Of a stretch of DNA of 64,000 nt, positions 5,755 to 18,718 are shown piece after piece (position 1 is the first letter of the stretch; every line of letters starts with the position of its first letter). The stretch spans positions 1 through 64,000 of the forward strand of contig CANEAY010000011.1 of NCBI GenBank assembly GCA_947425785.1, read 5' to 3'. The stretch comes from an uncultured Pseudoflavonifractor sp. (GTDB lineage Bacteria > Bacillota > Clostridia > Oscillospirales > Oscillospiraceae). The notes beneath the pieces are model-generated. The model searched no databases, had not been told where the DNA came from, and saw only the letters and a list, made by a program, of their open reading frames with translations. The translations under genes and the position numbers were made by a program.

Positions 5755-5852
5755 AACCTTATCTGTCCATTTTTACGCGGCCGGGGGAGAGAACCGGGCC
5801 GGGGGATGGAAAAAGCAGGCATTCTGTGGAAGAAAAGAGAGGAGGAGAGGAG

Positions 5853-8822
5853 ATGCGCCGACGGCTCACAGCCCTTTTGTGCGCCCTGGCCCTGCTGCTG
5901 CCCTGTCTGGGCGGCGCCTTCGCCCTGGAGGCGGAAGGCGGCCAGAGCCTGCGCTGCGCCGTGCTCTACGCCGGAGACGGCACAGCCTGGCAGGACGCCT
6001 ATTCCCACCTGGAGCAGTCTCTTCTTTTGAACATGACCGTCCAGGGGGTGGACGTGTCGGGCAGCTACTCCCTGGCGGAGTATGACGTGCTCTACCCCGA
6101 CGAGAGCGTCATGGCAAGCCCCGGGGCGGAAAAGCTGAAGGGAGAGCTGGTGGCCTTCGTGGAGGCGGGGGGCGCCCTTTTCCTGGGAAATGCCTTTTAT
6201 AGCTTCCTGCCCGCCGAGGTCATCGGGGCGGCGGAGTTTGTGAAGCTGGATCACTGCCCCGGCATCGTTCAGCTGACCGCCCAGGAGGTGGAGGGCGACC
6301 TCCGGGAGCTCCAGGGCATCGTCATGGACTTTGCCTCCATCTACCCCTACTATACCGACTATGAACGTTTGAGCGGCTATGACTACGGCTACGCCGTCCG
6401 TCCCAGCACCGCCCAGGTGCTGGTCAGCGAGGGGGATTTGGCTCTCTACACTATGAACCGCTATGGGGCGGGCTGGGTCTTCTTCACCAACCCCCTGCTG
6501 CCCAACGCCTACTCGGTGAACGGCTTCTCCTTGGAGAGCCGGGGAGATGAGCAGGTGTCCCTGGCCAATTCCACCGCCAGCGCCGGCCAGCTTCTCCGCA
6601 ATGCCTTTGCCGGCTTCCTGTCCAAAAAACGGTTCGGGTACGCCCCCTACCGGGTCTTCGGCACCCTGGGCCGGCCCAACATGGCCTGGGAGCTTCACCT
6701 GGAGGATATCACCGGCATGAGCCGGGGTACCGCCGCACCCTTCATTGAGATGAGCAAGGCGGCGGGGCAGATCCCCTCCTTCTCCCTCATCCGCTCCACC
6801 TACTACTGGCTGGAGCGGCGGGAGAGCGTCACCTACGTCCTCAACCAGTCTATGGAGGGCATGGACTTCCAGATGGATCTCTACGAGAGCGCCTACTCCT
6901 CCGGCACCCATGTCTCCGCCGGGGAGGAGGGGCAGTGGCTGGATTTGGGAGTGGTGTCCAACGCGGGCAGCTACTTTATCGACTACCCCGAGTACGACCA
7001 GCGCTCCTATCCCTATGTGGCCGACCTGAACGGCAACGGCCTTCTGGACGTGCTGTGCGGCGCGGCGGACGGCAAATTCCATCTCTATCCCGGCCGGGGC
7101 TATGGGGAGCGCTTCGCCGTGGGGACAGGGGTGGCCCTCACGAATACGGAGGGCCAGGCCCTGCTGGCCCCCGGCGGCTATTCCGCCCCCGTGGCCTTCG
7201 ACGTGGACGGCGACGGCGCCTGGGACATCGTCTCCGGGGCGGGGGACGGGAAGCTCTACTGGTTTTCCAACCAGGGGGGCTTCCAGTTTCGGGAGGAGGG
7301 CCTGATGCTGGACATCGGCCTTCCTGCCCAGGTATTCCCTGAGGTGGGTGACTTTAACGGCGACGGCTGCCCCGACCTGGTGGTGGGCAGCAGCGGCGGC
7401 CTTCTGCGGCTCTACCCCGGCAGCTCTCAAAAGGGCCTGCGGGTGTCCCCCTACCGTTACCGTGACCTGTCCGCTCCCTGCGCCGACATCGAGGGGGACT
7501 GGCTCGCCCCCCGGCTGGTGGACTTTAACGGCGACGAGCTTCCCGACCTGGCGGTGGGCACCTTCCAGGGCTACGTGGCCCGCCTTGTCCAGAACAGGGC
7601 CGGGACCCTGGACTTCTGCGGCTACATCACCGCCGACGAGCCCAACTACAAGGGCAACCACAACCTGAAATTCGGCAATAACTGCGTGCCCTTCTTCGTT
7701 GACCTCAACGGGGACGGGGCCTTGGATCTTCTGGCGGGCAGCCTGGAATACGGCATGGCCTACTCCATCGACGACCCCGCCTTCCCCTACCGGGACTCCC
7801 TCCAGGCGGAGGTGAAGGCCATCCAGGACTCGGGCAGCTACCTGGGCCTCCACGGCTACACCAACGTGAGCGCATCCAAAGAGCGGGAGCTGTGGGAGCT
7901 CTCCGCCCACAAGAAGGCCCTGGAGAGCTACGGCGTGGACACCTCCCGGATGGGCGCCAACCAGCACACCTGGCATTTGAGCGCCAACGACCAGGTGCAG
8001 TCCTTTGACGCCATGTGGGAATCGGGGCTGCTGTGGAACTCCGGCTTTGAGCCTGCCCGCTCCTCCGTCACCCCCCAGGTCAGCGCGGAGAACGTGATGG
8101 CTCTGCCCTTCTTCCTGGTGCGGGAGGGGGAAAAGACCCTCCTCCTGCAAAACTGCTCCACCTACACCTACGTCACAGAGCCCTGGGACGCCATCTCCGC
8201 CAAATACGGGATGCCCACCTGCGTCTACTACCACTGCGACTGGCTCTTCATGCCCAGCATTGAAGAGGAGGCCAGGGGCAAGACCGCCATGCTGAAGGAC
8301 TTCCAGGAGAAGTACCAATATAACTTCGTCCGGGAGGATCAGCTGATGCTGGCCACGGCGGCGGCCTACAACCTGAAGCTGGACTGCGCCGGAGAAGGAG
8401 ATGCCCTCACCCTGACCCCCGGCCATAGGGAAGAGGACTTCCCCCTCTACGAGGAGAGCTATCAAAACGCCTGCGGTGTCCGGTTGAGCTTTGGCCAGGA
8501 TGTGGACATCTCCCAGGTGAGCACCGACGCCCATGTGTGGCTTTGGCGCGACGGAGAGTTATATATCGGACTGGATAAGCCTGTCTGTATTCGTTTTGAC
8601 TCCCCCCAGGGCCCTGAAAACCACCTGAAGCAGGTGAACCTCCCCGCCGCCATCACCCGTGGGGAGGACGGGGTGACCCGGCTGGAATTCCGGGAGGGGG
8701 GCATGATGCAGGTGCGGCTGGCCGAACCTGCCCAGGTGCTCTCCCAGGGCTGGACAGTGGACGAGACGGGCACGGTGCTGACCAAGTTCGGCCCCGCCGA
8801 GACCCTGGAACTGATGTATTGA
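5853..8822 (+). CDS. Exported FG-GAP/VCBS repeat protein, first gene of the dlt-like operon
   Basis: Signal peptide MRRRLTALLCALALLLPCLGGAFA; about five D-x-[DN]-G-[DN]-G/E repeats (DLNGNGLLD, DVDGDGAWD, DFNGDGCPD, DFNGDELPD, DLNGDGALD). Confidence 0.8.
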   Translation: MRRRLTALLCALALLLPCLGGAFALEAEGGQSLRCAVLYAGDGTAWQDAYSHLEQSLLLNMTVQGVDVSGSYSLAEYDVLYPDESVMASPGAEKLKGELVAFVEAGGALFLGNAFYSFLPAEVIGAAEFVKLDHCPGIVQLTAQEVEGDLRELQGIVMDFASIYPYYTDYERLSGYDYGYAVRPSTAQVLVSEGDLALYTMNRYGAGWVFFTNPLLPNAYSVNGFSLESRGDEQVSLANSTASAGQLLRNAFAGFLSKKRFGYAPYRVFGTLGRPNMAWELHLEDITGMSRGTAAPFIEMSKAAGQIPSFSLIRSTYYWLERRESVTYVLNQSMEGMDFQMDLYESAYSSGTHVSAGEEGQWLDLGVVSNAGSYFIDYPEYDQRSYPYVADLNGNGLLDVLCGAADGKFHLYPGRGYGERFAVGTGVALTNTEGQALLAPGGYSAPVAFDVDGDGAWDIVSGAGDGKLYWFSNQGGFQFREEGLMLDIGLPAQVFPEVGDFNGDGCPDLVVGSSGGLLRLYPGSSQKGLRVSPYRYRDLSAPCADIEGDWLAPRLVDFNGDELPDLAVGTFQGYVARLVQNRAGTLDFCGYITADEPNYKGNHNLKFGNNCVPFFVDLNGDGALDLLAGSLEYGMAYSIDDPAFPYRDSLQAEVKAIQDSGSYLGLHGYTNVSASKERELWELSAHKKALESYGVDTSRMGANQHTWHLSANDQVQSFDAMWESGLLWNSGFEPARSSVTPQVSAENVMALPFFLVREGEKTLLLQNCSTYTYVTEPWDAISAKYGMPTCVYYHCDWLFMPSIEEEARGKTAMLKDFQEKYQYNFVREDQLMLATAAAYNLKLDCAGEGDALTLTPGHREEDFPLYEESYQNACGVRLSFGQDVDISQVSTDAHVWLWRDGELYIGLDKPVCIRFDSPQGPENHLKQVNLPAAITRGEDGVTRLEFREGGMMQVRLAEPAQVLSQGWTVDETGTVLTKFGPAETLELMY

Positions 8823-8839: not shown

Positions 8840-10357
8840 ATGAATTCCGCTGTGATGATGCTGGAGCGCACCGCCGCCCGGCTGGGGGACAAGACCGCCG
8901 TCCGGGACGAGTGGGAGGCGCTGACCTTTGCCCAGCTGCGCGCCAGGGCCCTGTCCATCGCCGCCGGCCTCGCCGGGGCCAGGGGCGGGCGCCGGGGGAC
9001 GCTGCCGGTGGTGGTGTACCTGCCCAAGAGCGCCGACGCCGTGGCCTGCTTTGCCGGGGCCATGTACGCCGCAGAGCCCTATGTGCCCGTGGCGGCGGAT
9101 ATCCCCATGCTGCGGCTCCAAAGCATTTTGAAGAGCCTGCGCCAGGGCTGTATCATCACCTGCCCGGAGCTGGCGGGGAACCTGGAGGGGCTGGAACTGG
9201 ACGGCTTCACCGTCCACCTCACCAAAGACCTGCGCTCCTGTCCCCCTGACGAAGCGGGGGCTTTGGCGCGGCTTCATGGGGTCATGGACGTAGACCCCAT
9301 CTACATCATGTACACCTCCGGCTCCACCGGCACCCCCAAGGGGGTCACCATCCCCCACCGGGGCATTTTGGACTATGCCCGGTGGCTGGCGGAGACCTTT
9401 GATTTTGACGAGGAGACCGTGCTGGGCAACCAGTCGGCCTTCTACTTTGACAATTCCACCCTGGACATTTATACCATGATGTACACCGGCGCGGAGCTGG
9501 TCATCATCCCGGAGGTGCTCTTCCGCTTCCCGGGGAAACTTCCCGAGTTCATCGAGGCGGAGGGCATCAACACCATTTTCTGGGTGCCCACGGTGATGAT
9601 CTCGGTGGCCAACTCCGGCATTTTGGAGGAGAAGGCCATGCCGGCGCTGAAAAAGGTGCTCTTCTGCGGGGAGGCCATGCCCAACCGCCAGCTGAACATC
9701 TGGCGGCGGTGCCACCCGGACGCCCTCTACGCCAACCTCTACGGCCCCACTGAGATCACCGACGTGTGCACCTATTACGTGGTGGACAGGCCCTTTGACG
9801 ACGGAGACCCCCTCCCCATCGGCGTCCCCTGCCGGAACATGGGGGCGGTGGTGCTCACCGAGGAGGGGAAGCAGGCGGCGGTGGGGGAGACCGGGGAGCT
9901 GTGCATCCTGGGCAGCGGCCTGGCTCTGGGCTACTGGAACGCCCCGGAGCTGACCAGGGCCGCCTTCGTCCAGAACCCCCTGTGTACCGACTATGACCAG
10001 CGCCTGTACCGCACCGGCGACCTGGCCTATGTCTCGGAGGAGGGCCTTCTCATGTTCGTGGGCCGGAAGGACTCTCAAATAAAGCTCCGGGGCAACCGCA
10101 TCGAGCTGGGGGAGATCGAGACCGCCTGCAAGACCCTGCCCGGGGTGGAGAACGGCTGCGTCCTCTTTGACGGGGAAAAGCAGGAGATCGTCCTCTTCCT
10201 CCAGACAAGAGAACAGCTTATCCTGCGGAAGGTGAACTTAGAACTGCGCAGGCACCTGCCCGCCTATATGCTCCCCGGGCGGCTGGTGTGTATGGCGGAG
10301 CTTCCACAGACCCCCAATGGAAAGATCGACCGGGTGAAGCTGAAAAGCACCCTTTGA
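8840..10357 (+). CDS. dltA: AMP-binding D-alanine--carrier protein ligase, DltA-like
   Basis: YIMYTSGSTGTPKGVTIPHRG; NLYGPTEITDVCTYY; YRTGDLAY; PNGKIDR; next to carrier protein and MBOAT genes. Confidence 0.85.
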   Translation: MNSAVMMLERTAARLGDKTAVRDEWEALTFAQLRARALSIAAGLAGARGGRRGTLPVVVYLPKSADAVACFAGAMYAAEPYVPVAADIPMLRLQSILKSLRQGCIITCPELAGNLEGLELDGFTVHLTKDLRSCPPDEAGALARLHGVMDVDPIYIMYTSGSTGTPKGVTIPHRGILDYARWLAETFDFDEETVLGNQSAFYFDNSTLDIYTMMYTGAELVIIPEVLFRFPGKLPEFIEAEGINTIFWVPTVMISVANSGILEEKAMPALKKVLFCGEAMPNRQLNIWRRCHPDALYANLYGPTEITDVCTYYVVDRPFDDGDPLPIGVPCRNMGAVVLTEEGKQAAVGETGELCILGSGLALGYWNAPELTRAAFVQNPLCTDYDQRLYRTGDLAYVSEEGLLMFVGRKDSQIKLRGNRIELGEIETACKTLPGVENGCVLFDGEKQEIVLFLQTREQLILRKVNLELRRHLPAYMLPGRLVCMAELPQTPNGKIDRVKLKSTL

Positions 10358-10371
10358 AAGGAAGGAAAGCT

Positions 10372-10614
10372 ATGAACGACATCGAGCAGGCCATCTTTGA
10401 CTTCGTGAAGGAGCGGTTCGAAATTGGGGACGACCCCGATTTTACCCCCGATGTCCACCTCTTTGACTCCGGCTTCGTGGACTCCCTGGGGGCCATTGAG
10501 ATCGTGGACTTTGCCGAGGAGCACTGGCACATCGAGATCACCCAGCGGGACTTGACCCTCTACCCCATGAACACGGTGGAGGAGATCGCCGCTGTGGTCT
10601 CCGCCAAGGTGTGA
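10372..10614 (+). CDS. dltC: Acyl/D-alanyl carrier protein, DltC-like
   Basis: 80 aa; phosphopantetheine site FVDSLGAIEIVDF. Confidence 0.85.
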   Translation: MNDIEQAIFDFVKERFEIGDDPDFTPDVHLFDSGFVDSLGAIEIVDFAEEHWHIEITQRDLTLYPMNTVEEIAAVVSAKV

Positions 10615-10616
10615 GG

Positions 10617-11120
10617 ATGGCCCTTATCCGTGACGGCCGGGGGGAGGACCTGCCCGGGCTGATAGAGCTTTATAAGGCCCTCTACGCCGGGCTGAAGGAG
10701 CAGGGCCTGGCCTTTGACCTGGAGCAGGAGGGGCTCTCCTCCATGGTGGAGACCATGCTCCGCTCCAGGCTGTGCTTTTTGGCGGTGGCGGAGGAGGATG
10801 GGGCCCTGGTGGGCTTCCTCTCCGCCGGGGTGGCCCGGATGGATCGAAAACTCTCCTATCAGGGGGGCAGTACCCTGGGCCTCATCCACGACCTTTACCT
10901 GACCCCGGAGGCCCGGGGCCGGGGCCTTGCCTCCGCTCTGCTGGACAGGGCGGAGGAGTGGATGACAGGGGCCGGGGCCGACCTGGTGGAGTGCCAGGTG
11001 GTCTGGGGCAACGCTCTGGGCGCCGCCTTCTGGGAGCGCCGGGGCTATGCCCCGGTGAGCGTCACCAGGGCCAAAACTTTGCCCGGGAAGGAAGAGGGCC
11101 ATGTGGTTCCTGCAAACTGA
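10617..11120 (+). CDS. GNAT family N-acetyltransferase
   Basis: IHDLYLTPEARGRGLASALLDRAEEW...WERRGYAPVS; overlaps the next gene. Confidence 0.85.
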   Translation: MALIRDGRGEDLPGLIELYKALYAGLKEQGLAFDLEQEGLSSMVETMLRSRLCFLAVAEEDGALVGFLSAGVARMDRKLSYQGGSTLGLIHDLYLTPEARGRGLASALLDRAEEWMTGAGADLVECQVVWGNALGAAFWERRGYAPVSVTRAKTLPGKEEGHVVPAN

Positions 11121-12237
11121 TACCCTGCTGGCCATCGCCGCCTTCTCCCTGGCCCTGGGCCTTTTGCGGAAGGTGCTGCCCGGCAGGGTCACGGCGGCCG
11201 TCTCCCCTGTGGCCTCCCTGGCGGTCATCGCCTGGATCAGCCCGTCCCTGGCGGCGTTCAGCCTGGTCTACGCCGGGGTGGGACTGGCTCTGGCGGCAGT
11301 GCTGGGGCGGATGGAAAAGGGGAGGAAGCTCTGCTTCCCCCTCTTCTGTGCGCTGGCCATTGTGCCCTTTGTCCTCAGCCGGGGGGAGGCCCTGGGCCTT
11401 AGCCTGACCCTGCCCTTTGAGACGGTGGGCCTGGCCTTTCAGATGCTGAAGGTCATCGATGTGTTTTACTATGTCTATTACGGCGGCGAGCGGGTGGATG
11501 TTGTGGCCTACTTTGGCTACCTCTTCTACCTACCCGTCTTTACGGCCGGGCCACTTTTCCGTTATCGGGACTATCTGCGCTCTGTGGACAAGCCCTTGAA
11601 GCTGGACGTGGCGGAGCTGACTTTGGACTTGAAGCGGCTCATCCGGGGCCTGTTCAAAAAGGTGGTGCTCTGCCGCCTGGCGGTGGAGGCCATGGCCTTT
11701 CTGACAGCCCAGACCCTGCGGCTGCCCCTTTGTATCCTCATCGTGGCGGTGAGCTGGCTCATCCTGTGGCTGGACCTGTCCGGGTACAGTGACGTGGCCA
11801 TCGCCCTGGGCCGGCTGGGGGGGCTGGACACCCCGGAGAACTTCAAAAAGCCCCTTATAGCCCCCAGCTTCACCCAGTTCTGGCGCAGCTGGCACGCCAC
11901 CCTCTCCGACTGGATCCGGGAGCATATCTACGTGGTGGTGGCCAAGAAGAAGCTGGGCCGGGGGACTTCCGCCGCCATCGCCTTTGTGACCATGGTGGTC
12001 ATGGCCCTGTGGCACGGCTTCAACCTGCCCTATCTGCTGGCGGGGGCCTATAACGGGGCCCTGCTGGCGGGGGAGAACCTGCTGGGGCTCACCACCGTCA
12101 GCCGCAAAAAGACGAAAAAGAGCGTCTTTGTCCTGCGGTGCCTGCTGGTGAATTTTCTCTTCGGCCTCAATACCCTGGTCTTTACCCTCCCCGCCGGCAC
12201 CGTCCTGGCCGTCCTCCGGGGCTTCCTGACGCTGTAA
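11101..12237 (+). CDS. dltB: MBOAT O-acyltransferase, DltB-like
   Basis: Multi-TM; TQFWRSWHATLSDWIREHIYV; invariant His in ALWHGFNLPYL. Confidence 0.88.
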   Translation: MWFLQTDTLLAIAAFSLALGLLRKVLPGRVTAAVSPVASLAVIAWISPSLAAFSLVYAGVGLALAAVLGRMEKGRKLCFPLFCALAIVPFVLSRGEALGLSLTLPFETVGLAFQMLKVIDVFYYVYYGGERVDVVAYFGYLFYLPVFTAGPLFRYRDYLRSVDKPLKLDVAELTLDLKRLIRGLFKKVVLCRLAVEAMAFLTAQTLRLPLCILIVAVSWLILWLDLSGYSDVAIALGRLGGLDTPENFKKPLIAPSFTQFWRSWHATLSDWIREHIYVVVAKKKLGRGTSAAIAFVTMVVMALWHGFNLPYLLAGAYNGALLAGENLLGLTTVSRKKTKKSVFVLRCLLVNFLFGLNTLVFTLPAGTVLAVLRGFLTL

Positions 12238-12249
12238 GGGGGTGGGCAG

Positions 12250-13146
12250 ATGAAGAAGGTATCAGCGTTTTTCCGCCGGGGGGGCGCCTTTCTGGTGACC
12301 CTGTGTGTGCTCTTTGTGGGGCTGGACATGGCCCTGACCGAGCGTCAGGTCATTGAAAAGAGCAGCCTTTTTAACCACAACGACTTTGAAAAGACCCTCC
12401 TGGCCCATGGGGGCGCGACGGTCTACGACAAAATTTTCTACGGCAATTCCGTGGTCATCTCCTCCTATGTGGAGTGGGCCTCCGACTCCGGCTACGCCAA
12501 CTTCGGCATCGACTACGGGGTGATGGGCGACCTGCGGGACATGCTGGAGCGGGGGGACGTCACCGTCACCGAAGACATCGTCCTGGGCCTTAACTACTTC
12601 GTCTTTTACGACGGTATGGACACCAACCCCACCTATCCCTGGCACCGGGGGCCTTTGGAGCCCTACCTCTACTTCCAGCGCGACCGGCTCCAGGCCCTGG
12701 GCAAAAGCGCCTGGGAGAGCTTCCGGGCCACCGGCCGGGTGGAGCTTCCCCGGTATGAGGACAATTTCAAGTTCATGTACTCCGGGGTGCTAGGGGAGCA
12801 GGAGATGGCAGAGAAGATCGCCGCCCACCGGGAACTCTACTGGGACAAGGGGCTGGAGCTCTATGAAGAGAACCTGAAGGCCCTGGAGGAGGTCATCTCC
12901 TTCTGCGGCGCCCACGGCATCCGCCTGCGGGCGGTGTGGCTGCCCTGGAACCCGTCGGTGCCCATGCCGGAGGGCCCCGCCAGGCTGCGGAAAGCGGCGG
13001 ACGAGATCATGTCGGCGGCGGGCATCGAGGTGCTGGACATGGAGCAGGGCCTTCCCCTGGACTGCTTCCACGACATCGGCCACCTGAACATGGAGCACGG
13101 CGCGTTTGTCTTTACGGAGGTGATGGATCCATGGCTGAAGTCATAA
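12250..13146 (+). CDS. DltD-like SGNH-fold membrane-anchored protein
   Basis: N-terminal TM; candidate nucleophile motif FYGNSVVISSY; C-terminal DxxH in CFHDIGHLN; gene order. Confidence 0.65.
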   Translation: MKKVSAFFRRGGAFLVTLCVLFVGLDMALTERQVIEKSSLFNHNDFEKTLLAHGGATVYDKIFYGNSVVISSYVEWASDSGYANFGIDYGVMGDLRDMLERGDVTVTEDIVLGLNYFVFYDGMDTNPTYPWHRGPLEPYLYFQRDRLQALGKSAWESFRATGRVELPRYEDNFKFMYSGVLGEQEMAEKIAAHRELYWDKGLELYEENLKALEEVISFCGAHGIRLRAVWLPWNPSVPMPEGPARLRKAADEIMSAAGIEVLDMEQGLPLDCFHDIGHLNMEHGAFVFTEVMDPWLKS

Positions 13147-13274
13147 AGCAGCTGCGGAAATTCAGCCTGACCGTCCCGGGCCAGGCGCTCACCGCCGTGG
13201 CCTATTTGGCCATGGCCTGCGCCATCCTGGCCTTCTTCACCGGGAACGGCGAATTTATCTATGAGGGATTTTGA
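13131..13274 (+). CDS. dltX: DltX-like microprotein (47 aa)
   Basis: MAEVIKQLRKFSLTVPGQALTAVAYLAMACAILAFFTGNGEFIYEGF: single TM and FIYxxF C-terminus as in DltX; overlaps the DltD-like stop; buried in a spurious 112-aa ORF in the track. Confidence 0.75.
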   Translation: MAEVIKQLRKFSLTVPGQALTAVAYLAMACAILAFFTGNGEFIYEGF

Positions 13275-13310: not shown

Positions 13311-15539
13311 ATGGCGGACAAAAGCGGCATTCCGGGCAGAAGGAACAAGGGCGGAAAGCGGCTGGCCCCACCCCAGCGCAGACATGGCCTGGACATAGGC
13401 GGCAAGGCGGAACGGGGAAGCCACAAACGGTTGGCCCAGCCCCAGCCCAAGCAGGAGCGCAGGGAGAGCCATAAGCGGCTGGCCCAGCCCCAGCGTGAGC
13501 ACAAAGAGAGCGCGTGGAAAAAGACATTCAGCGAGTGGAAAAAAGCAGTAAGCGCATGGGGAGCCCGGGTGAAACACACCTGCCGGGAGTGCAGGGAAAA
13601 GGCCGGGAAAGCGGTAGGCGCATGGCGCGAACGGCTGAAGCGCAGCCCCCAGGCGGAGCGCAGATACAACCCCTGGGTCTGGCTGGCCACCCTGTTCCTT
13701 GGCCCCCTGGCCATCCTGCTGTGTGTGCAGACCATCACCTTCGCCTCCCTCTTTAAAGCCTTCTCCTGGGTGTTCGGACACCTGGGGGCGGCGGTGCTGT
13801 GCTACCTGGCCCTGCTCAGCGCCATGATCATCATTCTGGCCCTCATCTGGAAGATATGGAGCGCCTTCCTCATCCTGGCCATCCCGGCAGTGGCCCTGGC
13901 GGTGGTGAACCGGATGAAGCTGAGCCTCAACGGCACCCCCCTGCTCCTCAGCGATTTCAGCCTGGCCTCCAAGGCGGGGGACGTGGCGGGCTTCGTCTCC
14001 CCCCAGTTCAAGATCGGCGTAGGGGTGTGGGCGGGCCTCATCCTGGCGGTGCTGGGCATCATCGCCGCCGGGAAGATCGGCTGGCGGCCCAAGGAGCTCA
14101 CCCCCCGCTGGTCTCTGCGGAAAAAAGTCATCGGCGTGGTGGCGGTCTTTCTGGCGGCCGTGATGTTCCTGCCCGCCCCCTTCTATCTGGGGGCCAATGG
14201 GGAATCCCAGGAGGAGCGCAACCAGCGGCTGGGCCTGCTGGGGGGCATGTACAGCGCCATCCTGAACCGGGCCTTCCGCAAGGACAACGTGAACCAGGCG
14301 GAGCTGGACAGGCTCAAGGAGGAGCTCCTCCAGACCCCGGCCCCCACCCCCACCCCCACCGCCGAGCCAGTCCCCACCGAGACCCCAGAGCCGGTGACCC
14401 CCAACGTGATCTTGATGATGTCGGAGAGCTTCTGCGACCCCACGGAGATCCTGCCGGAGGTGGAATTTGCCTCCGACCCCATCCCCTATTACCGCAGCCT
14501 GGCCGCCAAGTGGCCCTCCGGGGAGTTTTACTCCAACACTTACGCCGGCGGCACCGGCAGCGTGGAGATGGAGGTCTTTACCGGCATCCCCATGGCCTTC
14601 CTCCGGGAGGGGGAGGATCTGACCAACCTGCGGGGGACGGAGGGGGTCTACGACCGGCTGCCCTCCATCGTCAAGAGCTTTAAGGCGGCGGGGTACAGCA
14701 CCCAGTTCATCCACAACTACACCACCCGGCTCTATAACCGGGTGGAAAACTTCCCCGCCATCGGCTTTGACCAGATGACCTTTGAGGACGGCTTCCCCGA
14801 AGAAGCGGAGTGGGACGGCCCCTACCTGAAGGACATGGAGCTGACCTACGCCATGATCCGGGCCTTTGAGGAGAAAGAGGAGGACGAGCCCCTCTTCCTC
14901 TACGGCCTGACCATGGAGAACCACCAGCCCTACTACAGCGGCAAATTCCCGGAGCCTTCCGGCCTGGAGCCCCAGAGCGAGAAGCTGGATGAGGGCGTGC
15001 TGGGCACGGTGGACGCCCTGGTCTACGGCATCCATGCCGCCGACCGGGCCCTGGGCGCCCTGGTGGAGTATTTTGAGACGGTGGAGGAGCCGGTGCTCCT
15101 CATCTTCTGGGGCGACCACCTGCCGGGGCTTTACGTGGACGACAACAACACCATCTACTCCCAGCTGGGCTATGTGCCCACCGTGAACACCCTGGAATGG
15201 GACGCCGAGACCATGAAGAAGATGCACACCACCCCCTTCCTGGTGTGGAATAACTACGGCGCCCAGCTTGAGGTGCCCGATACCACCGGCCCCAGCCAGT
15301 TGGGAAGCAGTATCCTGGGCTGGGCGGGCTTGCCCAAGACCCGGTACTTCCAGTGGGTGGATCAGAGCCTGGACACCATGCAGCTCTACCGTACCCGGCT
15401 CTACATCGACGACGAGGGCGTCCCCTACAAGCAGCCCCCGGAGAGGGACAAGGCGGTGGTGGAGCGGTACCGCAGCCTGGTCTACGACATCATTTACGGC
15501 GACGGCCAGCTGGCGGAAGAGATGACAAAGATAGAATAG
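13311..15539 (+). CDS. LTA synthase family (sulfatase-fold) protein with basic repeat-containing N-terminus
   Basis: TM region then NVILMMSESFCDPTEI, FYSNTYAGGTGSVEMEVFTGIP, LIFWGDHLPG. Confidence 0.85.
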   Translation: MADKSGIPGRRNKGGKRLAPPQRRHGLDIGGKAERGSHKRLAQPQPKQERRESHKRLAQPQREHKESAWKKTFSEWKKAVSAWGARVKHTCRECREKAGKAVGAWRERLKRSPQAERRYNPWVWLATLFLGPLAILLCVQTITFASLFKAFSWVFGHLGAAVLCYLALLSAMIIILALIWKIWSAFLILAIPAVALAVVNRMKLSLNGTPLLLSDFSLASKAGDVAGFVSPQFKIGVGVWAGLILAVLGIIAAGKIGWRPKELTPRWSLRKKVIGVVAVFLAAVMFLPAPFYLGANGESQEERNQRLGLLGGMYSAILNRAFRKDNVNQAELDRLKEELLQTPAPTPTPTAEPVPTETPEPVTPNVILMMSESFCDPTEILPEVEFASDPIPYYRSLAAKWPSGEFYSNTYAGGTGSVEMEVFTGIPMAFLREGEDLTNLRGTEGVYDRLPSIVKSFKAAGYSTQFIHNYTTRLYNRVENFPAIGFDQMTFEDGFPEEAEWDGPYLKDMELTYAMIRAFEEKEEDEPLFLYGLTMENHQPYYSGKFPEPSGLEPQSEKLDEGVLGTVDALVYGIHAADRALGALVEYFETVEEPVLLIFWGDHLPGLYVDDNNTIYSQLGYVPTVNTLEWDAETMKKMHTTPFLVWNNYGAQLEVPDTTGPSQLGSSILGWAGLPKTRYFQWVDQSLDTMQLYRTRLYIDDEGVPYKQPPERDKAVVERYRSLVYDIIYGDGQLAEEMTKIE

Positions 15540-15540
15540 A

Positions 15541-15580
15541 AGACCGGCCGGCCATTCCTGGCCGGCCTTCTTCTTTTTGC
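15541..15580 (+). terminator. Rho-independent terminator after the ltaS-like gene
   Basis: GGCCGGCC-ATTCCT-GGCCGGCC followed by TTCTTCTTTTT. Confidence 0.85.
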
Positions 15581-15600
15581 GGGGCGGCCCCCGGCAGGGG

Positions 15601-15650
15601 TTGACTTTCCGGCAAAAATGTGGTAAAACGTTTACCTACGATACTTTACC
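15601..15650 (+). promoter_or_regulatory. Candidate promoter with overlapping operator for the TAXI-TRAP genes
   Basis: TTGACT-N17-TAAAAC; GGTAAA-ACG-TTTACC inverted repeat across the -10 and a third TTTACC half-site at 15645. Confidence 0.45.
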
Positions 15651-15684
15651 ACTTTTAACCGATAAAGCGAAAGGGGAGAGACCC

Positions 15685-17658
15685 ATGGAGGAGAAGAGAG
15701 AGGACGGACAGACCCAGGAGGAGCGCCGTGCCCAGGAACTGCTGGAGGAGAAGGAGGCGGAGTCCCGCACCCGGACTTACAGCGGCCCCATGGGGACTCT
15801 CATCACCGTCCTGCTGTGCCTGTGGACGGTGTTCCAGCTCTATTACAGTACCGTGGGCCTTATCAGCGCGGTGAACCTGCGGGCCATCCACTGCATCTTC
15901 CTGCTGTGCTTCACCTTCCTGCTCTATCCAACTTATAAAAAGGAGAAGCGCCTGCGCAAGGCCCCCCCGGTGTGGGACATTTTGCTGATGGTGCTGACGG
16001 CGGCGGTATTTGGCTACCTCATTTTGAACTACACCCGCATTGCCCAGAACGGCGGACGGCTCACCGACCTGGAGCTGGTCATCGCCGGGGTGGGCCTCCT
16101 CCTGGCCTTTGAGGCGGCCCGCCGCTGCTCCGGCAACCTGGCGGTGCTGGCCCTCATCTTCCTGGCCTATAACTGGTTCGGCCGGTACATCCCCGGCCGC
16201 CTGGGCCACAACGGCTTTACCCTCAAGCGGGTGCTCTCCACCCAGTTCTGGGGCACCCAGGGCATTTTGGGCACCGGCATCGGGGTCTCCGCCACCTACA
16301 TCTTTCTCTTCGTGGTCTTTGGGGCCTTTTTGAAGTACAGCGGCTTTTCCAAGTTCATCAATGACTTCTCCCTGACCCTGGTGGGCCGGACTCCCGGCGG
16401 CCCCGCCAAGGTGGCGGTGCTGGCCTCCGCCCTCATGGGCATGATCAACGGCTCCGCCATCGCCAACGTGGCCACCACCGGCACCATCACCATCCCTCTG
16501 ATGAAGCAGACCGGCTACAAAAAGGAGTTTGCCGGGGCGGTGGAGGCGGTGGCCTCCACCGGCGGGCAGTTCTGTCCCCCCATCATGGGGGCGGTGGGCT
16601 TTGTCATGGCGGAGTTTTTGGGCATGAGCTACACCAAGGTGATGCTGGCGGCCATCGTGCCCGCCTTCCTCTACTATTTGGGTCTCCTCTTCGCCGTCCA
16701 CTTTGAGGCCAAGCGTTTGGGGCTGTCCGGCCTCTCCAAGGAGAACATCCCCGACGCTATGAAGGTGGTGAAGGAGCAGGGTCACCTGGTGATCCCCCTG
16801 GTGGTGCTCATCGCCCTCATGGCGGTGGGGTATACCCCCCTCTACGCCGCCCTCATTTCCATCTTTGCCACCGTGGCCGCCAGCTGGCTGCGCAAGGAGA
16901 CCCGGATGACCTGGGACAAGATCGTGGCCGCCACGGTGGAGGGGGCCCGCAGCGCCGTCAGCGTGGGGGTATGCTGTGTCATCATCGGCGTCATCATCGG
17001 CACCGTGACCCTCACCAGCCTGGGGCTGAACATGGGCTACCTCATCCTCTCCATCGTGGACAACACCAACATTTACCTCACCGGCTTTTTGGTGATGATC
17101 ATGTCCGCCATCCTGGGCATGGGTGTGCCCGGCGTGGCCGCCTATGTTATCGTCCAGGCGGTGGCGGTGCCGGTGCTCATCAAGGTGGGTGTGCTGGACA
17201 TCTCGGCCCATCTCTTCTGCCTCATCTACGCCTGCCTTTCCAACATCACCCCTCCAGTGGCCATGAGCAGCTATGTGGCCTCCGGCATCGCCGGTTCCGA
17301 CCAGACCAAGACGGGGCTATTGTCGGTGCGGCTGGGCCTTGTGGGCTTCCTCATCCCCTTCTTTTTCCTGGACAGCCCCATCCTCCTCGTCGGGGTGGAT
17401 CCCACCGCCACTTTGGCGGCCACCCTCTGGGCGGTATTCACCGCCTCGGTGGGCACCGTGGCCCTGGTGAGCGGTCTGGAGGGGTGGCTCCTGGGCAGGG
17501 CCTCCTGGCCGGAGCGGGCGGTGCTCATGGCGGTGGCCCCCCTGATGCTCTATCCCGGCTATCTCACCGACGGCATCGGCTTCGCCCTGCTGGCCGCCGT
17601 CGTGGCCTTTCAATATTTTACCCGTCGTCCCGCATCCCCGGTCCCCGGGAATGCCTGA
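15685..17658 (+). CDS. TRAP transporter permease, fused 4TM/12TM type
   Basis: LMGMINGSAIANVATTGTITIPLMKQTGYKKEFAGAVEAVASTGGQFCPPIMGA; Met 15685 after GGGGAG. Confidence 0.93.
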   Translation: MEEKREDGQTQEERRAQELLEEKEAESRTRTYSGPMGTLITVLLCLWTVFQLYYSTVGLISAVNLRAIHCIFLLCFTFLLYPTYKKEKRLRKAPPVWDILLMVLTAAVFGYLILNYTRIAQNGGRLTDLELVIAGVGLLLAFEAARRCSGNLAVLALIFLAYNWFGRYIPGRLGHNGFTLKRVLSTQFWGTQGILGTGIGVSATYIFLFVVFGAFLKYSGFSKFINDFSLTLVGRTPGGPAKVAVLASALMGMINGSAIANVATTGTITIPLMKQTGYKKEFAGAVEAVASTGGQFCPPIMGAVGFVMAEFLGMSYTKVMLAAIVPAFLYYLGLLFAVHFEAKRLGLSGLSKENIPDAMKVVKEQGHLVIPLVVLIALMAVGYTPLYAALISIFATVAASWLRKETRMTWDKIVAATVEGARSAVSVGVCCVIIGVIIGTVTLTSLGLNMGYLILSIVDNTNIYLTGFLVMIMSAILGMGVPGVAAYVIVQAVAVPVLIKVGVLDISAHLFCLIYACLSNITPPVAMSSYVASGIAGSDQTKTGLLSVRLGLVGFLIPFFFLDSPILLVGVDPTATLAATLWAVFTASVGTVALVSGLEGWLLGRASWPERAVLMAVAPLMLYPGYLTDGIGFALLAAVVAFQYFTRRPASPVPGNA

Positions 17659-17692
17659 TAGAATACAAGACCGAAATAAGGAGTGGAATGAA

Positions 17693-18718
17693 ATGAAAAA
17701 GAAGCTGTCTGTGATCCTGGCCGCCGCCCTGCTGGTGAGCGCCCTGGCGGGCTGCGGCGGCGGGAGCGCCACGACTCCCGCCCCTGTGGAGAGTGCCGCC
17801 CCTGTGGAGAGCACCGCTGCCGCGGAGCCCCACGCCCCTGTGACCATCAACTTCCCCACCGCCACCGCCAACGGCGCCCTCTACGCCGTGGGCGCCGCCA
17901 TCACCAACCTGTGGGACACCGAGCTGGACTACGTCAGCGCCTCCAGCCAGGCTTCCAACGGCGGCATCGACAACCTCAACCAGATCTCCGAGGGGGAGAG
18001 CCAGGTGGCCATCGCCATCAGCTCCAACTGCCTGCAGTGCCTCAACGGCACCGACAGCTTTGAGGGCCACGCCTACGGCGACCTGAAGGTCATCGCTGGT
18101 TTGTACTTTAATCCCAACCAGGTGGTAGTCACCGAGAAGTCCGGCATCACGGATCTGGCCGGGGTGAAGGGCAAGCACTTCGCCGTGGCCGCCGCCGGCT
18201 CCAGCGTGGAGGGGGAGTGCCGCAACCACTTCACCGCCGCCGGCCTGAACTACCCTGACGACATCAACTGCGAGTACATCGCCTTCGGCGACGCCGCCGA
18301 TATGCTCCAAAACGGCACCATCGACGGGGCCTGGATCATGTCCGGCGCCCCCGCCGGGGCCGTGTCCCAGGCCATGTCCTCCGGCTGTAAGCTGCTGAAC
18401 ATCCCCGATGAGATCATCAGCACCCTGCAGAAGGACTACCCCTGGTATGCCCCCTGCACCATCCCCGCCGGCACCTATCCCAACCAGGACGAGGACGTGC
18501 AGACCTCCGCCATCAAGATGGTCATGTTCTGCCGGGGGGACATGGACGAGCAGACCGTCTACGACCTGACCCGCACCTTCTGGGAGAACATCGACGAGCT
18601 GGGGGAGGCCCAGGCCAACCTGAAGGGCCTCACCGCCGAAGAGGCGGTGAAGGACATCGCCGGCCTGCCCCTCCACGCCGGAGCGGAAAAATACTACAAA
18701 GAGATCGGCGTGCTGTAA
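17693..18718 (+). CDS. TAXI family TRAP transporter solute-binding lipoprotein
   Basis: Lipobox MKKKLSVILAAALLVSALAGCGGG; ANGALYAVGAAITNLW; RBS AAGGAG. Confidence 0.92.
   Translation: MKKKLSVILAAALLVSALAGCGGGSATTPAPVESAAPVESTAAAEPHAPVTINFPTATANGALYAVGAAITNLWDTELDYVSASSQASNGGIDNLNQISEGESQVAIAISSNCLQCLNGTDSFEGHAYGDLKVIAGLYFNPNQVVVTEKSGITDLAGVKGKHFAVAAAGSSVEGECRNHFTAAGLNYPDDINCEYIAFGDAADMLQNGTIDGAWIMSGAPAGAVSQAMSSGCKLLNIPDEIISTLQKDYPWYAPCTIPAGTYPNQDEDVQTSAIKMVMFCRGDMDEQTVYDLTRTFWENIDELGEAQANLKGLTAEEAVKDIAGLPLHAGAEKYYKEIGVL

Follow-up and report, generated by a model that had tools for sequence, protein, structure and literature searches.

Does a 47-aa reading frame that overlaps the end of a DltD-like gene in an uncultured Pseudoflavonifractor sp. 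encode a protein, and would that protein act as DltX does? In DltX and PatA, the tyrosine of a C-terminal FXYXXF hexapeptide ferries the acyl group from an MBOAT protein to the serine of an SGNH protein; in carrier-protein systems the hexapeptide lies on a separate DltX chain, and in acyl-CoA systems it lies on two extra helices of the MBOAT (PMC12148441). The initial annotation called the frame DltX-like. We refer to the frame as X and to the whole stretch of DNA analysed (64,000 nt) as the window. The genes concerned are the following.

5826..8822, + strand: FG-GAP-repeat protein, 998 aa, conserved first gene of the cluster
8840..10357, + strand: amino-acid adenylation enzyme (DltA-like; pocket DNLFLCLDVK)
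10372..10614, + strand: acyl/peptidyl carrier protein (DltC-like)
10617..11120, + strand: GNAT acetyltransferase; its gene belongs to the operon and overlaps that of the MBOAT
11101..12237, + strand: MBOAT (DltB-like), 378 aa; the C-terminal helices and FxYxxF motif that other MBOATs have are absent
12250..13146, + strand: predicted SGNH-fold membrane-anchored acyltransferase in DltD-like position, 298 aa; Ser67, Asn115 and Asp275/His278 invariant
13116..13124, + strand: Shine-Dalgarno sequence of X, within the SGNH gene, common to relatives
13131..13274, + strand: X, single-TM microprotein with C-terminal FIYEGF; proposed acyl shuttle, Tyr44 being the putative acyl carrier
13311..15539, + strand: LtaS-like membrane protein of the sulfatase superfamily, a neighbour solely within the window's own genus

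X is a coding gene

Translation of X gives MAEVIKQLRKFSLTVPGQALTAVAYLAMACAILAFFTGNGEFIYEGF, 47 aa followed by a stop codon. The Shine-Dalgarno sequence, GGAGGTGAT, is strong and stands 6 nt from the ATG, and the frame shares 16 nt with the end of the SGNH gene. The product has a single hydrophobic stretch, at residues 19-37 (mean KD 2.11); translation and hydrophobicity thus bear out the earlier description of a frame that starts 16 nt inside the DltD-like gene, encodes one TM helix and ends in GEFIYEGF. It had also been remarked, correctly, that the ORF list holds X only as the tail of a spurious, GTG-started 112-aa frame (12936-13274); this longer frame was ruled out as the gene because its upstream part is not conserved among relatives. 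For example, the open frame in L034 reaches back no further than the start codon of X, and those in L043, L050 and L047 are 48-49 codons long. Its small size and its overlap with the neighbouring gene explain why X was overlooked.

A short, overlapping frame that appears in the ORF list only within a longer one could be suspected of being a chance ORF across the end of the SGNH gene. However, X is kept in 27 of 27 related loci, and the 64-kb window contains a single FxYxxF with a stop directly after it, where shuffles give an expectation of 0.02; a pattern search of the 1.96-Mb genome finds seven, three of which are the C-termini of other MBOATs and one of which is X. Within the genus, and measured outside the overlap, dN is 0.21-0.25 and dS 0.92-1.15, a contrast confined to this frame. 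The dN/dS of two other clades is about 0.1-0.3, and most comparisons overall fall at about 0.1-0.27, with a wider spread (about 0.1-0.6) in the clade of fused forms described below. A chance origin, already refuted by the conservation, can be given practically no credence: X is a genuine coding gene under purifying selection.

Conservation of X and of its neighbourhood

The alignment of X comprises 28 rows, namely the window and 27 loci from a scan of GTDB genomes, mostly Oscillospiraceae/Flavonifractor-type MAGs. The C-terminal FxYE is present in all 28 rows and the FxYExF ending in 25, the tyrosine being invariant across loci; X in L038, L039 and L042 ends in FIYELG or FIYEL, without the final Phe of FxYxxF. 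Among the 25 sequences with the full motif, the invariant residues, counted from the C-terminus, are Tyr-23, Met-20, Phe-12, Gly-10, Gly-8, Phe-6, Tyr-4 and Glu-3. The shortest X is 37 aa long (L035 and L036).

In every one of the 27 GTDB loci, X comes after the SGNH gene, and the gene order is largely kept. The SGNH protein, used to search 149 relatives, and X, used in a search of its own, pointed with good E-values to the same nine genomes (that of the window, G000, and eight others), in which X adjoins the SGNH gene except for a fused copy in one of them (G085); several of the 27 GTDB loci are the same records as genomes in this search. In a further 297 genomes, the strong matches beyond the window's genome were the same two for X and for the SGNH protein (G529 and G600), with X adjacent.

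Other genes accompany the cluster. The FG-GAP protein, the C-terminal half of which has no clear family, heads it wherever the contig is long enough. At least 16 loci have the GNAT gene, at varying positions (for example, 10998-11465 in L050), which suggests that its product may modify the acyl group or the carrier-bound amino acid. Downstream in the window, at 15577-18718, a multi-TM permease-like gene precedes one for a putative solute-binding lipoprotein; by eye, this pair reads as an ordinary TRAP-type (TAXI) transporter.

Relation of X to DltX

X shares with DltX (PF12459, e.g., of B. thuringiensis) a length of about 50 aa, a basic N-terminus, one TM helix and a predicted extracellular C-terminus bearing FxYxxF with an invariant Tyr. 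It is likewise paired with an MBOAT lacking the motif, an SGNH protein, a carrier protein and an adenylation enzyme, although these partners correspond by type and not by the Dlt equivalog cut-offs: the window's enzyme scores 279.9 bits against DltA TIGR01734 (cut-off 559.85), its MBOAT 142.5 bits against DltB TIGR04091 (cut-off 375) and its carrier 19.2 bits against DltC TIGR01688 (cut-off 52.35). Unlike DltX, X has a linker between TM helix and motif that is about three residues shorter, and it carries the signature FFTGxGxFIYExF. An invariant TM residue of DltX, Leu23 (PMC5541007), is also not conserved in X, where the aligned position is A in 15 and L in 7 of 25 sequences; the Tyr just before it is invariant.

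In profile searches, X matched neither PF12459 in Pfam (at E<=5) nor DltX in NCBIfam, and nothing in the whole genome exceeded the PF12459 gathering cut-off of 25 bits; strict membership of X in DltX was rejected on this ground. Two relatives of X match PF12459 in the correct C-terminal register, at 14.7 and 14.0 bits, below that cut-off. When X was compared profile to profile with DltX, represented by seven sequences (one from PMC5541007 and six others), 23 columns aligned through the last residue, covering TM helix and motif, with a probability of 80% against 1% for a control set of TM helices. The short motif dominates this comparison, and it is therefore possible that X and DltX are alike by convergence.

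The DltX-like reading thus stands as regards anatomy, context and conservation, and falls as regards formal membership. The initial annotation had proposed a DltX HMM search, and would have given up the idea if a missing profile match were combined with a non-conserved terminus; the match is missing and the FxYE(x)F terminus is conserved. It had also noted that X lies after dltD rather than before dltA. The position is as described, but it is not unusual, since elsewhere in the Bacillota (L060 and L061) the coordinates give an overlap between the end of a canonical-looking dltD and a PF12459-positive DltX. On sequence and by analogy, we regard X as functioning like DltX; descent from DltX and a role with D-Ala and teichoic acid form no part of this claim.

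An MBOAT without its own motif

The window's MBOAT belongs to PF03062 (95.5 bits, cut-off 27) and conserves WH(G/E) with the catalytic His. This genome encodes three paralogues of it, which are 466-482 aa long and end in FIYGQF, FLYFQF and FIYFRF, these motifs sitting on an extension of about 75-100 aa that is absent from the window's MBOAT, in which no alternative motif was found. As all three paralogues carry FxYxxF and the window's MBOAT does not, X would provide the motif to it from a chain of its own, in the way that DltX serves DltB. When X was compared by hhalign with the tails of the genome's own MBOATs (three sequences only), the motif was not aligned. The absence of the motif from the MBOAT and the conservation of X beside the SGNH gene together mean that the functional idea of the initial annotation holds.

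The MBOAT paralogue of L020 is closely followed by a weak match to the SGNH alignment (G000:C2:138430-138726); that MBOAT therefore probably has an SGNH partner of its own.

PatA/AlgI-type MBOATs share with the X system the acyl-Tyr hexapeptide motif and an SGNH partner. In contrast to the window's arrangement, in which the motif is on a separate chain (or, elsewhere, fused to another membrane protein) and the donor would be a carrier protein, they carry the motif on the MBOAT chain itself and take acyl-CoA as donor.

The SGNH protein and the adenylation enzyme

The predicted structure of the SGNH protein (pLDDT 80) matches SGNH hydrolases, PatB and DltD structures in Foldseek, for example DltD 6pfx with E 8e-4 and a TM-score of about 0.4. 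The model and the Ser, Asn and Asp-x-x-His residues place the protein in the SGNH acyltransferase fold; as the TM-scores are modest, the matches support this fold and not membership in DltD. The protein resembles DltD (PF04914) and PatB in its N-terminal TM helix, fold and Ser-Asn-Asp/His residues, but is 298 aa long and has no match to PF04914, for which the entire genome gave none at E<=1. A PDB sequence search with the SGNH alignment returned nothing meaningful.

The pocket of the adenylation enzyme agrees with that of DltA at 4 of 10 positions (D235, L299, C301 and K517); D-alanine and teichoic acid are therefore at most candidate acyl group and acceptor for this cluster. In eight loci (L042, L049 and L052-L057) there are two tandem adenylation genes, with pockets xLDVK and xLVDK, so that residues 330/331 are swapped (DV versus VD). 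This suggests that two amino-acid substrates may be provided for one carrier.

Fused forms of the X module

In six loci the X module (TM helix plus FxYEAF) is the C-terminus of a multi-TM protein of 400-522 aa, encoded directly after the SGNH gene.

L049, 10779-11978: fused X module
L052, 10899-12464: fused X module
L053, 6987-8441: fused X module
L054, 10842-12293: fused X module
L055, 10842-12293: fused X module
L056, 4444-5907: fused X module

The fused partner is possibly GT-C-like; its sole family hint is a weak PMT_2 match (E 0.012) in one member, and the structure prediction of a 484-aa fused protein was unusable (pLDDT 43). As judged from sequence, fusion to a multi-TM protein is a third, new way of carrying the putative acyl-shuttle motif. 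The free X of L057 has a K-rich/PPLP linker resembling that of the fusions and is possibly an evolutionary link to them. One fused form (L054) comes from Flavonifractor sp. An306, by the title of its record an isolate genome, and the acyl group and its acceptor could therefore be tested there.

The acyl-shuttle model and its alternatives

X is almost certainly a conserved microprotein that acts as a DltX-like acyl shuttle in a Dlt-like system not covered by the current Dlt profiles, and very probably serves as the acyl-tyrosine shuttle of a surface-acylation machine of this type. The adenylation enzyme would adenylate an amino acid and load it onto the carrier protein; Tyr44 of X, in the FIYEGF terminus outside the cell, would then receive from the MBOAT the acyl group of the carrier thioester, and X would present it to Ser67 of the SGNH protein for transfer to a cell-surface polymer. 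We infer the acyl-Tyr chemistry, the topology and the complex formation of X from the biochemistry of DltX and PatA. The missing DltX match of X and the three loci without the final Phe count against the model.

These three loci would suit an MBOAT-SGNH complex in which X is a structural or regulatory subunit and takes part in no covalent acyl-Tyr step, and a regulatory role for the DltX helix was discussed in a structural paper on DltB (PMC11035591). We consider such a subunit improbable: the Tyr and Glu are invariant in a motif identical in form to that of the proven shuttle, and the MBOAT offers no substitute for it. A stronger contender, though still unlikely in our judgement, is that X is a true but diverged DltX orthologue in an ordinary D-alanine teichoic-acid Dlt pathway. 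The shared anatomy and gene company, the profile comparison, the four DltA-like pocket residues, the LtaS-like gene that adjoins within the genus and the PF12459-positive DltX found after dltD elsewhere are all in keeping with it. Against this stand the unmet DltA, DltB and DltC cut-offs, the absence of PF04914 from the whole genome, the remaining pocket positions, which include Phe278 and Asp330, the loss of the Leu23 equivalent, and the GNAT and occasional second adenylation enzyme with a different pocket. With its partners below the Dlt equivalog or family cut-offs and a pocket that differs from that of DltA, the earlier statement that X strongly supports a Dlt assignment, that is, D-alanine on teichoic acid, is not upheld.

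Significance

The acyl-tyrosine shuttle of the preferred reading extends a recently proven mechanism to a family missed by current profiles, and the shuttle module is also seen joined to membrane proteins of a third kind. The signature FFTGxGxFIYExF, together with an adjoining MBOAT without its own motif, may be used to find hidden shuttle microproteins. We tentatively propose, at somewhat less than even odds, that gut Oscillospirales-type bacteria possess a distinct Dlt-like system in which an amino acid other than D-Ala would be esterified to a surface polymer, possibly N-acetylated by the linked GNAT, and sometimes with two amino acids supplied by two adenylation enzymes. Its shuttle module would be portable, being a separate chain here and the tail of the MBOAT in other cases; Flavonifractor-type genomes would have it at the end of a possibly GT-C-like membrane protein, where it may couple acylation to another membrane step.
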